From the NCBI GenBank assembly GCA_001599915.1, contig BCIG01000020.1, positions 397,416 to 461,415 on the forward strand: a DNA stretch of 64,000 nucleotides. The letters are read 5' to 3'. This document shows positions 3,104 through 9,424 of this stretch, in pieces (positions within the stretch are counted from its first letter, which is position 1; each line of letters starts with the position of its first letter). This DNA comes from Symbiotaphrina buchneri (Eukaryota > Ascomycota > Symbiotaphrinales > Symbiotaphrinaceae). A model generated the notes under the pieces. That model saw only the letters and a program-made list of their open reading frames with translations. It was not told the DNA's origin and ran no database searches. A program made the position numbers and the translations under genes.

Positions 3104-4024
3104 ATGGCAGCAACCACGTCTGCTCCAACTGGAGGGGCGGCGCCGAATCCCACGTAAATAGCAATGACTTGAGTTCGCTGATTGTGCGCTGACAGTCTTT
3201 CGACAGGGTCTACGTATGCCTTCCACTTTGGCCCCCCGCGGCTGGCTCGACTGACCGTTAATGCAGGTGCGGAATCTGGAGGAGCGTGTAAAGATTGATC
3301 AGCTGAAGGAGGCTTTGTTGGAGATCTTCTCGGAGTACGGAAATGTCATTGATCTTGTCGCGAAGAAGAACCTCAAGGCGAAGGGTCAAGCCTTCGTTGT
3401 CTTTGACAGTGCAGAGGCTGCCGAACGAGCCATTCAAGAAGTCCAAGGTTTCGAGCTTTTCGATAAGCCGATGGTATTAGATTTCGCACGTTCGAGAAGT
3501 GACGCAACTGTCCAACGCGAGGGGTCTGAAGAAGACTTGGAGGCGCATAAGAGGAGGAGACTGGCGGAGAAAGGTACTTTGCTCTGCTACTCTCAAGCAG
3601 AGCCCGCTAACTTGTGATCGCAGAGCGGAAACAGGCGCAAGCTGCCTTGGAGGCCCAGAAGAGATTGAAACGCCCGACGGGTGCACCCGAGCCTGTCCCA
3701 GGCCGACCTGCCAAAACAGCTAGAGGCGCAGGCCTCAAATCGTCGAATGCCGGTGGAACTGCCATCGTGCCAGACGAATACCTGCCACCAAACAAGATCC
3801 TCTTTGTGCAAAATCTACCGGATGAGTATGACGTGGAGAGCCTTACAGCGATATTTGGTAGGTTTGAAGGTTTCAGGGAAGTACGGCTGGTACCAGGGAG
3901 AAAAGGCATAGCATTCGTCGAGTACGAAGCGGAGACCGGGGCCATTCAGGCCAAGGAGAACACGGCCGGGATGGCACTTGGGGATGTCAGCAAACCGATG
4001 AAAGTCACTTTCCAGAGACAATGA
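3104..4024 (+). CDS. U1A/U2B''-type snRNP protein with two RRMs
   Basis: Spliceosomal RNA-binding protein of the SNF (U1A/U2B'') family, which binds the stem-loop of U1 or U2 snRNA in the nucleus. The model has four exons: 3104-3153, 3207-3213, 3267-3573 and 3624-4024, giving 254 residues. The first RRM begins TVYVRNLEERVKIDQLKEAL and has an RNP1-like KGQAFVVF. A basic linker follows, then a second RRM with KILFVQNLP and GIAFVEY ending at the C terminus, the layout expected of the family. Exon 2 is only 7 nt (GGTCTAC). It is needed to supply the VY of the RNP2 strand and keep the frame. Both flanking introns are 53 nt with CTGAC branch sites. U1A and U2B'' orthologues cannot be separated by eye. 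Confidence 0.9.
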
Positions 4025-4196
4025 GCATTTGGACATGTACGATAGTCGGGGCACAGGGCGTTAGGGTGCTGGTTTGGGGAAAAGCTTGCTAGAATCTGCC
4101 GTTATAGATTCCGCGCAGTTCCAAATGATACAATGCTGGTCCAGCAAACGACTCCAGGACACCGCCGGTTGAACAGTTATAAAACGCCATGCACAC

Positions 4197-5471
4197 CTAG
4201 AAGATGACATCCGTATCCTCTTCTCCCCCCAATACATCCTTCCCGTCTGGCTCATTCTCCTTATCACTTCCAGACTTGGCCTTGGCTCGTTTTGCAGCAT
4301 CTGCAGCAGCATCCGCCGCCGCCCCCTCCCGCTCTTTGTTGTTTTTCACCTGCCTTATGGTTAGCCCAATGGACCATGACTCGATAAGCAGAGATCTTGC
4401 CTTCTTCAGACGGAAGAATTCTTCACGATCGAGCTCATCCAACTCAGAATTGATGTCTACTAATTTCAGATTTGGGTCCCGAAGTGGAGGAGGAAGACTT
4501 GCATTTTATTGTATTTTCTGTTCGAGGGATGATCACCTACTAGCGGTCAGCCTTCCCGATACGACGAAGCAAGTGGTCAAGGAACTTACATGTTCGCTGT
4601 GACAAGCCAGCGGCCCTAGGTTAGCAAATAAAGACGAATTGAAGCCAGGTGGGCTAACTGACATGGCGTTTACTGTCATATTAGACGAATCAGTACATGT
4701 CTAGACGGGGTGGACCTGTGTGACTGACCTCTTCGATTCACGACCTTGATCACCTCATCCAATATCACGAAAGCAGTCTAACCGACGATATCAGCCAGGT
4801 TCCATACAAACCCTGTTGATGATGCATTTGTCTCACCTGAAGGCTCGCAAGTTCCACCAAAGTCTCAACTGCCCTTGCATATGTCTCTCGACAACGTTGT
4901 ACCTGCTGTCCACCCTTACCAAGGCCGGTAAGCCCAAAGTCATTGCTTTCGTCCTGAGTATACGACTCGAACGCAGGTAGGAAGACGCCCGATACGTTCT
5001 CTTGCCTGGTCCGGACGCGGAATCGGGCTGATTTGGCTGATTCCTGAACCTGGTAACCAATGTCTCCTCCAACAGCGTACGTCACCTCGGCGAGGGAGAA
5101 AGCGGCTATCTGCATGACACGACCCATTTTTCTTTTTGCTTCATCAATTCGCCGTGTGATATCTTGTTATTCAATTAGCATCGTATTTGAAGGCGAAAAG
5201 GAGACGGTCGAACCTCGGAATCGCCTGAGTCGAGAACTTCAATTAGCAGCAGCTGGATCACACGCATCGCGGCGGGGTCTGACTTTGTCAATGCTTCACT
5301 CTTCCGCTTCAGGAGGCTATGGCCTGTCTGTGCTCCCTTCAGTTTCCCTTGCATCATAGCCAGTGACTGGCGCGTAGCAAAGACGGCCTCGCGGTCCTAG
5401 ATTTGTGTGAGCGATGACTAGACGCTGGCCTTTTGGTGCCATTGTCAAGGACCTACCGCAGCTCCAGACAT
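4197..5471 (-). CDS. VMA8: V-type proton ATPase subunit D
   Basis: Central-stalk subunit of the vacuolar ATPase V1 sector, which couples ATP hydrolysis to proton pumping at vacuole and endosome membranes. The model has ten exons and 257 residues, the normal family length. Exons in gene order: 5457-5471, 5284-5396, 5214-5224, 4837-5162, 4729-4777, 4663-4672, 4590-4596, 4503-4536, 4401-4456, 4197-4349. Family landmarks are FATRQSLAMMQGKLKGA, RRIDEAKRKMGRVMQIAAFS, GGQQVQRCRETYARAVETLV, VIIPRTENTIKYINSELDEL and REEFFRLKK. Exons 3, 6 and 7 are only 11, 10 and 7 nt. Introns 8 and 9 begin with GC (GCAAGT and GCAAGA) rather than GT. The last intron, 4350-4400, is 51 nt and stop-free, so retention would add 17 residues. 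The C-terminal tail is acidic and alanine-rich. Confidence 0.93.
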
Positions 5472-5902
5472 GATTCCTCTTGCTGCGATAAGGCCTCGCT
5501 TCTGTTGGATGAGTGGAGTGCTGAATGGACACGCAAAAGCAGCAGTGATAATGCGACTATAGGGATCGTAGTAGACGGATGCAATAAGGCCTATAAGGGA
5601 AGACCTTCCTGACGTCCAGCGATTGGTGAAGAGAGCTGGTGGGAGGCTTTATCCTTTGGAAGCTCTAAGAGAAGTCACTCCAGTTGAACGATGATGTACC
5701 GATGCACTTCGCTTGCGCACTAGCCCGACTTAGTCTCTGACATTTGCGGATTGCCGTCGCGAGGGTCGCCAGAATACTACTTCGTACATACACCTACTCG
5801 TGCGCAGATAACTCACTCATACGGAACGTCGACCACCAGGATATGAGCTCCTGGTAGCCTTTCGTTGTTACTGCTCTTCTCGCGGCCATCAGCTTCGAGC
5901 CC
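5472..5902. promoter_or_regulatory. Divergent interval VMA8 / SYF1
   Basis: This 431-bp interval separates the start codons of two genes read in opposite directions, so it must hold both promoters. I see no clear TATA box or named factor site. Confidence 0.5.
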
Positions 5903-8670
5903 ATGATGCCCGGTGAGCTCTTGACCGTGCAGCATGGCTCCCGTAGCCTGGCGCCGCCGAACCATGCCCATGCCCATACTCACCATTCCCGACCGGATCT
6001 GTACCTTATTGTGAGTTCAATGCGCCTGAGCGACCAACTCGACCGAACTAACAAATTTGGTGCTCTAGACAGATGCCGATGTAGTCTACGAGCAAGACAT
6101 CCTGCGAGATCCTGGAAGCATCAAGCCATGGCTTGCTTATGCCGACTTCAAGTCCAAGCACGGCAGTCTCCTCGAACAAGCATTCGTATGCCTTTGCCGG
6201 TCCAGTGAGAGGAAAACAGACGGCTAATGATGTTAGGTCTTGGAACGCGCTTGCACCCAACTCCCTCGATCGTACAAACTCTGGAAGAGGGTAAGAGGTG
6301 ATCCCAATGGTCAAAATCGGTTGCTAATTGATCAAAGTATCTTGAACTGCGCGTCAAGCACCTGGATGGGAGAAACCCCGCGGTACACGTTGGAGATTTT
6401 GCAAAAGTCAATGCTCTTTTCGAACGCGCCCTCATTCTCCTGAACAAAATGCCTCGTATCTGGGAGATGTATCTATCGTTTCTGATGAGACAACCGTTGG
6501 TAAACCCAACTCGGCGAACTTTTGACAGGGCTCTCCGTGCGTTACCTCTCACCCAGCACAATCGTATATGGGCTCTGTATAAACCCTTTGCAAACTCCGC
6601 ATCTGGTGAAACGGCCGTCAGGATATGGAGGCGGTACATTCAACTTCACCCGGAGGATACTGAAGATTTCATCGAGCTTCTGGTTGAAATGGGTGAATAT
6701 ACCACAGCGGTGAAAAAGTACATGGACATACTAAACAATCCTCGTTTCCGAAGTAAGGAAGGAAAGGGTCCTTTTCAACTTTGGACGGAGATGGTCGACC
6801 TTCTTGTCAGCCACGCTAGACAAATCGAGACGAGGAACAACCTCTTCATAGACGTGGAACAGATCGTCCGGAGCGGTATCGAGAGATTTGCAGATCAACG
6901 AGGCAGGCTATGGGCCGGCCTAGCGACATACTGGATCAGAAAAGGCAACTTCGAGCGGGCCCGGGATATTTTTGAGGAAGGGATCACAACCGTCATGACC
7001 GTGCGCGATTTTACATTGATATTTGATGCTTACGTCGAATTCGAGGAGTCTGTCATCGGTGCTCTCATGGATGCAGCAGCAGCACGCTCCGAGAAGGGGA
7101 AGATCGACGAAGATGCCGACTTCGATCTGGATATAAGAATGATGCGATTTGAACAACTGATGGATCGCCGACCTTTCTTGATAAACGACGTTCTCCTGAG
7201 GCAGAATCCCAACAATGTCAACGAATGGGAAAAGCGGGTTGCATTATGGGGGGACAACAAGAAGGAGGTGGTACAGACATACACAGATGCCATCGCGGCC
7301 ATACAACCTAAGAAGGCAATTGGAAGGTTCCATGAGCTCTGGGTCAATTACGCGAAACTCTACGAAGGAGGCGGCGATTTACGAAATGCCAGGATTATAA
7401 TGGAGAAAGCAGTCAAGGTGCCCTATAAATCAGTGGCTGAACTGGCAGAGCTGTGGTGCGAATGGGCGGAAATGGAACTTCGGAACGAAAATTTTGATCG
7501 TGCAGTTGAGATTATGGCCAAGGCCACTCAGGCCCCAAAGAGATCCACCGTGGACTATTTCGACGAAAGTCTTGCTCCTCAGCAGAGGGTCCACAAGAGC
7601 TGGAAGTTATGGAGCTTCTACGTCGACTTAGTGGAAAGTGTTGGGACGCTTGACGAGACAAAGAAGATCTATGAGAGAATTTTCGAACTACGAATCGCAA
7701 CACCACAGACAGTCGTGAATTATGCTAATCTTCTAGAAGAGAACAAGTACTTTGAAGAATCATTCAAAGTATATGAGCGCGGCCTTGATCTCTTCAGCTA
7801 TCCGGTAGCCTTCGAGTTATGGAATCTCTATCTCACCAAGGCTGTGGAACGACAAATTGGAATAGAGCGGTTACGAGATCTGTTCGAGCAGGCCATTGAA
7901 GGTTGCCCCCCTAAATTCGCCAAGGTCCTCTATCTCATGTACGGGAACCTCGAGGAGGAGAGAGGGCTGGCCAGACATGCCATGAGAATATATGAGCGAG
8001 CTACCCGCGCCGTGTCTGATGAGGACCGATTTGAGATGTTCAACTTCTACATAACGAAGTCAGCATCGAATTTTGGCCTTACATCTACCAGGCCTATCTA
8101 TGAACGGGCGATCGCAGCCCTTCCGGATAAAGAAGCAAGAGATATGTGTCTTAAATTTGCCGAAATGGAGAGGAGGCTAGGGGAAATTGATCGTGCAAGA
8201 GCCATTTATGGTCATGCATCTCAATTCTGCGACCCTCGCACCACTCCTGGCTTTTGGTCAAAATGGGAAGCCTTCGAAGTGCAACACGGCAACGAAGATA
8301 CGTTCAAGGAGATGCTGCGCATCAAGAGAAGTGTGCAGGCACAATACAAGTCAGTTCCTGCAAGACCCAGGTGTATCATGTGCGACAACGTTGCTGACAT
8401 GCTAGTACTACCGACGTCAATTTCATTGCCTCTCAAGCAATCGCAAGAAGCCAGCAAAAGCCTGGGGAAGCTGCCAATGGTGAAGACGATGAAGAGACTG
8501 ATGAACGGAGAGATGCGATGGCGGCGCTTGAACGTCAAGCAAGAGCTCCACAGGGCTTCGTGCCCTCTTCTAGTGGGCCCGAGGGGGCGAGGAACGAGGT
8601 CGAGCACGAGAATTCGAGAGTCACCGCAAATCCTGACGCCATTGATATCGGTGCAATGGATGATGAATGA
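5903..8670 (+). CDS. SYF1: Pre-mRNA-splicing factor SYF1 (HAT repeats)
   Basis: Scaffold protein of the Prp19-associated (NTC) complex that helps activate the spliceosome; the human counterpart is XAB2. Five exons, 5903-6010, 6069-6185, 6237-6290, 6338-8349 and 8406-8670, encode 851 residues, the usual fungal length. The protein is almost entirely half-a-TPR (HAT) repeats. Landmarks include VVYEQDILRDPGSIKPWLAY near the N terminus, RTFDRALRALPLTQHNRIW, RFADQRGRLWAGLATYWIRK, and SQFCDPRTTPGFWSKWEAFE before the acidic, glutamine-rich tail. The start is set by the first exon frame, which joins to TDADVVYEQ without a stop; a second ATG directly follows the first. The last intron must be removed to read the conserved TDVNFIASQAIARSQQ segment. 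Confidence 0.95.
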
Positions 8671-9260
8671 TCTTTGAGACAAGAATGAAAGGAGGGAGCG
8701 GCGCATTCAGTCTTTGGAGCGACCACGGATGTCACAATTGGCGTTGGGGGTACAAATCAGATGCATGGTTTGGCGTTTGTGGTGACGATTATGGTTCTGG
8801 ATGTCCCAGTCTTATGTTTCTACAACTACTTGTTGCATGTAGTCACTGGACTTCAAGTACGTAGCTTGAGTGAACATACAAAAATCTGAATTGTGGTAGC
8901 TTCACATATTGGAACGCTCACGAGACGTATGCATGGGCGTTGCCCTCTCCTTGTTCTACTGGCGGTTACCAACAGACTAGTACACAGTGAATAGCCCTAC
9001 AAAGATTCCGAAACTCGAAGCGAAGCCATGCGGCCCTTGCCGTCTTGCTGCCCTGTCCAATCCGGTGGGTAAATTATAATCGGGCGAGCGATTGTATGAG
9101 GCCCCTGCCAATCCTGGAACTCTATGTCATGGGGAACAGCATTCATTTTCACGGACTGGGCGTCTTATAGCGCCAGAGTCGTGGGATGAGTTTGGATGTG
9201 CTCATCAGAAAAGCGCGTTTTGAAATATTTAACAATTTGGGCGGCTTTTCGTCACGGATC
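8671..9260. other. Intergenic stretch SYF1 to tRNA-Val
   Basis: No convincing gene is seen. The sequence holds the SYF1 3' end and the upstream flank of the tRNA gene. Confidence 0.5.
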
Positions 9261-9400
9261 GGCTTGGTGGTGTAGGCAAGTTTCACTTTCATCAAATTTC
9301 GAATTCACTTCTAACTATTCACAGTTGGTTATCACATCTCCTTAACAGAGCACTAGTTCTTGTGCGGAGAAGGTCCTGGGTTCGAGTCCCTGCCGAGTCA
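9261..9400 (+). tRNA. tRNA-Val(AAC), interrupted twice
   Basis: The segments 9261-9275, 9325-9347 and 9365-9400 join into a canonical tRNA. The acceptor stem GGCTTGG pairs with CCGAGTC (two G-U pairs) and A73 follows. The D-arm is GTGTAG plus TTGGTTATCAC, the anticodon stem is TCTCC/GGAGA with loop TTAACAC (anticodon AAC at 9344-9346), and the T-loop is TTCGAGT. One U-U mismatch lies in the T-stem. A 17-nt intron at 9348-9364 sits at the canonical 37/38 position and contains GTT, complementary to the anticodon. A second insertion of 49 nt at 9276-9324 splits the D-loop. Box B is intact; box A is interrupted by the insertion. It may be a functional gene with a novel intron or a pseudogene. Confidence 0.85.
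9276..9324 (+). other. Intron-like insertion in the tRNA D-loop
   Basis: The insertion starts GCAAGT, has a TCTAAC branch-like motif 9 nt before its end and ends ACAG. These match the GC-AG spliceosomal introns found in protein genes of this window. The dinucleotide AG occurs at both junctions, so the exact boundary is ambiguous by 2 bp. Confidence 0.7.
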
Positions 9401-9414
9401 GACAAGTACTTTAC

Positions 9415-9424
9415 TTTTTTTTTT
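9415..9424 (+). terminator. Pol III T-run terminator
   Basis: Ten consecutive T residues start 14 bases after the end of the tRNA, a normal RNA polymerase III termination signal. Its presence argues that the tRNA gene has kept its 3' control element. Confidence 0.75.

Follow-up and report, generated by a model that had tools for sequence, protein, structure and literature searches.

Spliceosomal-type introns in tRNA genes: a probable GC-AG intron in the D arm of a fungal tRNA-Val(AAC) and similar inserts in 14 further tRNA genes of the same genome

Introduction

Can a nuclear tRNA gene host an intron of the mRNA type and still give rise to a tRNA? This question is raised by a tRNA-Val(AAC) gene located in the window (the whole stretch of 64,000 nucleotides analysed here), in which 49 nt with the appearance of a GC-AG intron interrupt the D arm. 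Canonical introns of eukaryotic nuclear tRNA genes occupy a fixed site between positions 37 and 38, are cut by an endonuclease and do not need GT-AG or branch signals. To our knowledge, it is generally held that nuclear tRNA introns are cut by the tRNA endonuclease only. Among Pol III genes, U6 is known to carry spliceosomal introns. We propose that the insert is very probably a spliceosomal GC-AG intron in a functional Pol III tRNA-Val(AAC) gene, and that it reflects a genome-wide condition involving 15 of 43 tRNA genes and 18 introns. The observations that we bring to the question are the anatomy of the gene, the recurrence of the insert, the splice-signal statistics, the restored tRNAs, the uninterrupted paralogues and the flanking signals.

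Results

Anatomy of the tRNA-Val(AAC) gene

The gene lies on the plus strand in three exons. Exon 1 (9261-9275; tRNA positions 1-15) contains the 5' acceptor strand and the start of box A, TGGTGTAG. Exon 2, which opens with TTGGTTATCAC (9325-9347; positions 16-37), contains the remainder of the D arm, the 5' part of the anticodon arm and the AAC anticodon, and exon 3 (9365-9400; positions 38-73) carries box B, GGTTCGAGTCC, intact at 9379-9389 and ends with the discriminator A at 9400. Between exons 2 and 3 there is a canonical 37/38 tRNA intron of the endonuclease type, 17 nt long (9348-9364), which the preliminary description had recognised and which ARAGORN placed. Between exons 1 and 2, that is between tRNA positions 15 and 16, lies the 49-nt GC-AG intron of the mRNA type (9276-9324), which cuts box A in two (9268-9275 and 9325-9328), as had been noted. 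The insert begins with GCAAGT and ends with TTCTAACTATTCACAG, and it contains the branch-site consensus CTAAC at 9311-9315, in which the branch A (9314) precedes the intron's 3' end by 10 nt; the intron-like signals ascribed to it earlier (the GCAAGT start, the CTAAC branch site and the ACAG end) are all present. With a perfect AG/GCAAGT 5' splice site and CACAG at its 3' end, it can be likened to a textbook fungal GC-AG intron. The preliminary description had also compared it with GC-AG introns in VMA8 (window 4801-5560, minus strand), and this comparison was not borne out: the two 5' introns of VMA8, placed by eye, start with GTAGGT and GTCAGA, and a probable third starts with GTTCGA. A nearby AGGCAAG reads as coding.

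Together with box B, the gene has an upstream TATA-like element, TATTTA (9226-9231, plus strand, at -35), and a downstream run of ten Ts (9415-9424, plus strand), the T-run seen earlier, which from the sequence is the probable Pol III terminator. The predicted pairing of the acceptor stem across the gene was found at 7 of 7 positions, two of the pairs being G.U. The sole blemish that we noticed, absent from the preliminary description, lies in the T stem, where pair 50.64 is a T.T mismatch (CTGGG/CCCTG).

With the insert in place, ARAGORN found no tRNA in the 64-kb window, even with introns allowed; when the 49 nt were left out, it called tRNA-Val(AAC) with the 17-nt intron at 37/38. The claim that removing 9276-9324 restores the tRNA therefore held, and its coordinates were exact. 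Rfam cmscan returned nothing for the window at the gathering threshold, and only sub-threshold matches locally. We also used an intron-aware scanner, whose target is a tRNA that is either uninterrupted or becomes whole once a single GY..CTRAY..AG intron is taken out. On both strands of the window it gave one match, the Val gene, and on one strand of one mononucleotide shuffle of the window it gave zero. Over 285,797 bases from 120 loci, many of them overlapping, it matched only at tRNA genes counted below or at the mitochondrial-like loci L008 and L015.

The tRNA genes of the genome

The genome searched was the window's own assembly (23.38 Mb in 82 contigs), in which we identified 43 nuclear tRNA genes, mostly one per anticodon. 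Fifteen of them carry one or two mRNA-type inserts, and the other 28 have a 37/38 intron alone or no intron; 37/38 introns are present in 37 of the 43. The interrupted genes are those for Val(AAC), Arg(CCG), Arg(TCT), Ala(AGC) (two genes), Pro(AGG), Pro(TGG), Ser(AGA), Ser(GCT), Thr(TGT), Ile(AAT) (one of two genes), Trp, Gln(TTG), initiator Met and Phe. Two inserts each are found in initiator Met, Phe and Ser(AGA), and the Phe gene combines its two mRNA-type introns with one of the endonuclease type.

The Rfam tRNA model gave 30 matches in the genome when 62 of 613 first-look candidates were scored; two of these matches, L027 (Ile-AAT) and L028 (Trp), have intron-like inserts in the T arm. 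Among the 15 interrupted genes, 11 escaped the Rfam search at this depth, as did 7 among the 28 uninterrupted ones. The search did list the interrupted Arg(CCG) gene, which ARAGORN read as selenocysteine. A box-B pattern followed by a T5 run returned a full list of 96 rows; this pattern and its follow-ups led to further tRNA genes, and the last of the follow-up patterns returned known tRNA genes only. Bare box-B words number 172, versus 184 for the reversed control pattern, and most of the 172 lie outside the inventory. From one 85-row pattern list the inventory covers the known genes and 12 fetched sites, and 14 of the 22 rows of a one-mismatch pattern list fall outside it. In these searches of the genome, which are of limited sensitivity, no gene in any form was found for elongator Met, Gly(GCC), Ala(TGC), Leu(TAA) or Ile(TAT).

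The count of 43 leaves out the mitochondrial-looking L008, L015 and L029, the ambiguous tRNA-like L019, L064, L077 and L030, duplicate loci, and loci without a tRNA by scanner or eye (L072, L081, L082, L109-L120, L124-L128, L129-L138 and, likewise, all loci from one box-B follow-up pattern except L091). L008 (C3), L015 (C1) and L029 (C9) are AT-rich tRNA-Met and tRNA-Cys sequences of mitochondrial appearance that lie in large, nuclear-looking contigs, with single Ns in L008 and L029; they may be nuclear copies of mitochondrial DNA or the result of mis-scaffolding. L064 (G000:C1:518443-519243), L077 (C25:154300-155097) and L019 (C12:528725-528886) have good acceptor and T arms and no sensible anticodon arm under one-intron models, and may be decayed genes or genes with more complex introns. 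Two dispersed repeat families open with a box-B-like word, GTTCGAGTCCTGGTAAAACCACC... and GTTCGAATCCCGGAAAAATC..., with roughly a dozen copies each among the pattern rows (examples in L107, L119 and L120); possibly they are tRNA-derived short elements.

Position and splice signals of the inserts

The 18 inserts, 49-69 nt long, are located in the D, anticodon, variable or T arm. Seven lie in or at the edge of the D arm (13/14, 15/16 twice, 19/20, 23/24, 24/25 and 25/26), two in the anticodon arm (30/31 and 32/33), one in the variable arm of Ser(AGA) and eight in the T arm, between positions 51 and 54 and directly 5' of the conserved TTCRA. All 18 end in AG, and they start with GT (17/18) or GC (1/18); G at +5 and a YAG end are each found in 17 of the 18. 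The branch-site consensus CTRAY, with its A 8-20 nt from the insert end, is present in 14 of the 18, versus 9% in shuffled inserts, and the remaining four have TTAAC (twice), CTAAA and CTCAT in that place. The inserts resemble in length the 73 mRNA introns that we predicted from open frames and motifs (median 58 nt), a comparison that is only partly independent, since GT/GC, CTRAY, AG and a length of 43-78 nt were required of these candidates. The GC-AG class makes up 5 of the 73. BLAST revealed no near-identical copies among 17 of the 18 inserts, the longest non-self match being 13 nt, and a burst of introners or introner-like mobile introns was rejected because the 17 compared inserts are unrelated in sequence. 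Note that the signal table, like the BLAST comparison, covers 17 inserts, and that the splice-signal and bulge-helix-bulge (BHB) counts cover all 18.

The junctions were located with a tRNA-structure scorer that is blind to splice sites, applied to every single deletion of 30-130 nt. This was a stricter scorer of our own, since ARAGORN scoring accepted odd D and variable loops too readily to fix junctions in the D arm. The 26 loci scanned comprise 12 interrupted genes, 11 uninterrupted controls and L019, L064 and L077; the 12 had been picked after inserts were suspected by eye, so the scan bears on where the junctions lie and not on how frequent such genes are. A GY..AG deletion was top or joint top in 11 of the 12 interrupted loci, and in L068 it came second, 0.4 points behind the best, with GY..AG accounting for 0.6-1.8% of the 3,390-7,052 alternative deletions per locus. 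Eight loci had a unique best deletion, which was GY..AG in seven. The gain from the best GY..AG deletion ranged from 5.2 (Thr) to 26.9 points across the interrupted loci and was above 26.9 in Ser(AGA), for which no structure was possible before deletion. The blind scan of Ser(AGA) was made under a reading with one D-loop intron and a 52-nt 37/38 intron, which proved wrong: the gene has a second GT-AG intron in the variable arm and no 37/38 intron. In the 11 controls the best GY..AG deletions gained at most 0.5, and no GY..AG deletion was among the five best in these or in L019, L064 and L077; in L019 the best of them gained 6.3, and other deletions 9.6. For Val, 10 deletions tied at the D-loop junction, the structure leaving the exact site unfixed. 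For initiator Met, Phe, Ser(GCT) and the second intron of Ser(AGA), we placed the junctions visually on the tRNA structure, outside the blind scan, and scored them afterwards.

Following removal of the inserts, a canonical cloverleaf was obtained with our scorer for all 15 interrupted genes (for Val also with ARAGORN), and their tRNA scores, 35.3-57.2 before removal, became 57.4-63.6, compared with 56.9-64.2 for the uninterrupted nuclear genes. The highest score before removal is that of Thr(TGT). This gene also allows a drawing with a long pseudo-37/38 intron (57.2 versus 62.4), and because of this the evidence for it is weaker than for the other interrupted genes.

Which polymerase transcribes the interrupted genes?

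A TATA-like hexamer, defined as a match of at least 5/6 to one of five words at about -55 to -20, lies upstream of 15/15 interrupted and 27/28 uninterrupted genes (in three genes the upstream stretch was shorter than 60 nt), versus 30% of random window sites, which include coding DNA. T-runs are located directly 3' of the interrupted genes, as in the uninterrupted tRNA genes, and in five of the eight T-arm cases the box B consensus GGTTCRANNCC is whole downstream of the intron, its first G coming from the intron end in three of these five. Because of these three features, the upstream hexamers, the downstream T-runs and the whole box B, Pol III is the likely polymerase of the interrupted genes. 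A TTTTT run within the Trp insert could stop Pol III. Runs of four or more Ts occur in 1 of 17 inserts versus 16 of the 73 mRNA-intron candidates, a difference that is not significant (P=0.086), and for that reason we rejected terminator avoidance as proof of Pol III transcription.

Alternatively, Pol II might transcribe some or all of the interrupted genes, for instance as parts of longer RNAs, with splicing taking place co-transcriptionally and the tRNA being cut out later. Such a route would present the spliceosome with its normal substrate, Pol II transcripts, and would agree with the splitting of box A in three genes and with the lack of significant terminator avoidance; the T-runs and TATA-like elements that adjoin these genes just as they do the uninterrupted ones argue against it, and we consider it improbable.

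The only strong match to U6 snRNA in the genome (L084, G000:C13:78988-79086), with TATATATATTAAA upstream, is uninterrupted, and we accordingly rejected the idea that this fungus has an mRNA-type intron in its own U6 gene.

Are the inserts endonuclease introns?

The inserts could also be atypical endonuclease introns, marked by a BHB motif, with the SEN complex as the cutter and Trl1 as the ligase. The endonuclease-type introns at 37/38 in 37 of the 43 genes lend this some plausibility, as do the tRNA-Ile(UAU) introns of Cyanidioschyzon merolae, which lie at 12/13 and 53/54 (PMC9602550), near several of the sites described here. A complete BHB central helix, however, occurs in only 2 of the 18 inserts, against a mean of 1.9 when exons and inserts are re-paired at random, in a simplified test of the 4-bp central helix alone, run without a positive control. 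Moreover, the near-universal GT/GC, CTRAY and AG signals would be superfluous for an endonuclease. We regard atypical endonuclease introns as very unlikely.

Uninterrupted relatives and genes found only with inserts

The two Ala(AGC) genes have their inserts in different arms, each being intact where the other is cut, and the two Ile(AAT) genes differ by a T-arm insert, present in one and missing from the other. The D arm is whole in Val(TAC), Val(CAC) and Arg(TCG). After joining, the D arm of Arg(CCG) is identical, letter for letter, to that of Arg(TCG), and that of Val(AAC) has one extra T in the loop when compared with Val(TAC) and Val(CAC). For 13 of the 14 affected anticodons our searches, of limited sensitivity, found no uninterrupted gene: Val(AAC), initiator Met, Trp, Phe, Gln(TTG), Ser(AGA), Ser(GCT), Pro(AGG), Pro(TGG), Arg(TCT), Arg(CCG), Ala(AGC) and Thr(TGT) were found only interrupted. 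The initiator-Met gene, L108, which has two inserts, shows A1-T72, three G-C pairs in the anticodon stem and an ATCGAAA loop, which we take to be the marks of an initiator. The initiator T-loop pattern occurs at 11 sites in the genome (12 rows), and L108 is the sole tRNA among them; the other 10 have at most 4 of 5 T-stem pairs and, where they have 4, 3 of 7 acceptor pairs, and are not tRNA genes. Since a cell cannot live without most of these tRNAs, the inserts must be removed, unless a whole second set of genes is missed by the assembly or the searches.

Could the Val locus be a dead tRNA gene with an intron-like insertion, another Val(AAC) gene being the one in use? The T.T mismatch in the T stem and the split box A would suit a dead gene, and the same genome holds the possibly decayed tRNA-like loci L064, L077 and L019. 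Nevertheless, the check for other Val(AAC) copies in the assembly that the preliminary description had proposed found none, either in a whole-genome DNA search with the insert-free tRNA, which is insensitive and also missed the sister Val genes, or in the fully listed box-B patterns. Furthermore, the locus has an intact acceptor, anticodon arm, 37/38 intron, box B and terminator, and 14 further genes, including the only initiator Met found, have a like insert. A dead gene is thus hardly to be expected here. The preliminary description had offered an intron-like element, an unusual processing route and a pseudogene as three separate options; with 15 of the 43 tRNA genes alike, the first two are supported jointly and the third is unlikely. 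Assembly error, which it had also considered, or chance resemblance has a negligible probability: all that speaks for it is the reliance on a single assembly without reads, and the 18 inserts are spread over many contigs, carry consistent signals and, in the 17 compared, share no match longer than 13 nt.

Host lineage

The Scc2-like protein encoded in the window scores 1089 bits to 5t8v, presumably a Chaetomium structure, versus 264 to S. pombe mis4. The top-ranked matches of Syf1 are from Candelina mexicana (89%) and Candelaria pacifica (88%), with further lichen fungi next in rank, and the best match of the CCA-adding enzyme is from Xylona heveae (57%). These similarities suggest that the host is a filamentous ascomycete near Xylona-like and lichen-forming lineages, and that none of the matches listed comes from a close relative. 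The gene for Syf1, a splicing factor, lies upstream of tRNA-Val (window 6449-8677, plus strand); this vicinity is probably a coincidence.

Discussion

The maturation pathway that we infer for tRNA-Val(AAC), including the spliceosome as cutter, Pol III as polymerase, the order of the steps and the use of the product, would be as follows. Pol III would make the pre-tRNA by means of the TATA-like element upstream, a box A that is partly intact and a box B that is wholly so, and the transcript would end at the T-run. The spliceosome would take out the 49-nt intron in the nucleus, thereby restoring the D arm, and the tRNA splicing endonuclease and ligase would afterwards take out the 17-nt intron at 37/38. 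The only genes found for initiator Met and for 13 of the 14 affected anticodons would pass through the spliceosome, which is therefore likely to be an obligatory enzyme of tRNA maturation in this fungus. If so, translation would depend on splicing capacity and on the order in which two splicing machines act.

If spliceosomal removal is correct, tRNA joins the substrates of the spliceosome, with about a third of the identified tRNA genes affected, and a whole class of transcripts outside mRNA is spliced. Intron gain would become testable in short, well understood RNAs. The findings also carry a warning, as tRNA finders overlook genes with introns of this kind.

No report of spliceosomal introns in nuclear tRNA genes was found in a search by title and start of abstract (full-text search, most subscription journals and bioRxiv being outside its scope), and the stem 'spliceosom' is absent from the main text of a tRNA-intron review (PMC4090602). 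The best reading is that the inserts are spliceosomal introns in functional Pol III tRNA genes, comparable to those of some fungal U6 genes.

The U6 genes are among the closest known cases. Tani and Ohshima, and Canzler et al., are said to have described mRNA-type introns in the U6 genes of S. pombe and other fungi. According to PMC8917221, the U6 RNA of S. pombe is a Pol III transcript that is spliced by the spliceosome. The likeness to the fungal U6 introns is that of a short spliceosomal intron in a gene from which Pol III makes a small structured RNA; here, in contrast, the hosts are many tRNA genes, with up to two introns each, several of them inside the internal promoter. Spliceosomal introns in ectopic positions also occur in the rDNA of lichen-forming ascomycetes, one of 57 bp in Cladonia grayi being described in PMC8527467, whose main text has no occurrence of 'tRNA'. 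These introns resemble the ones reported here in being of similar size, spliceosomal, outside mRNA genes and in ascomycetes, and they fit a lineage that tolerates spliceosomal introns outside mRNA; unlike tRNA, rRNA is a Pol I transcript. Fungal U3 snoRNA genes, too, have normal spliceosomal introns (PMC5832005), in a non-coding RNA gene as here, but U3 is not a tRNA.

Among tRNA genes, those of C. merolae have introns with a BHB motif in the D, anticodon and T arms (PMC9602550), and noncanonical introns are found in the tRNA genes of archaea (PMC8450103). Both systems share with ours the presence of several introns per gene and their location in the D and T arms, whereas their introns are recognised by the BHB and in ours the BHB central helix is at the level of chance and spliceosomal signals are present. 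Finally, the canonical 37/38 introns occur here in the same set of genes (37/43), and the mRNA-type inserts lie at other sites.
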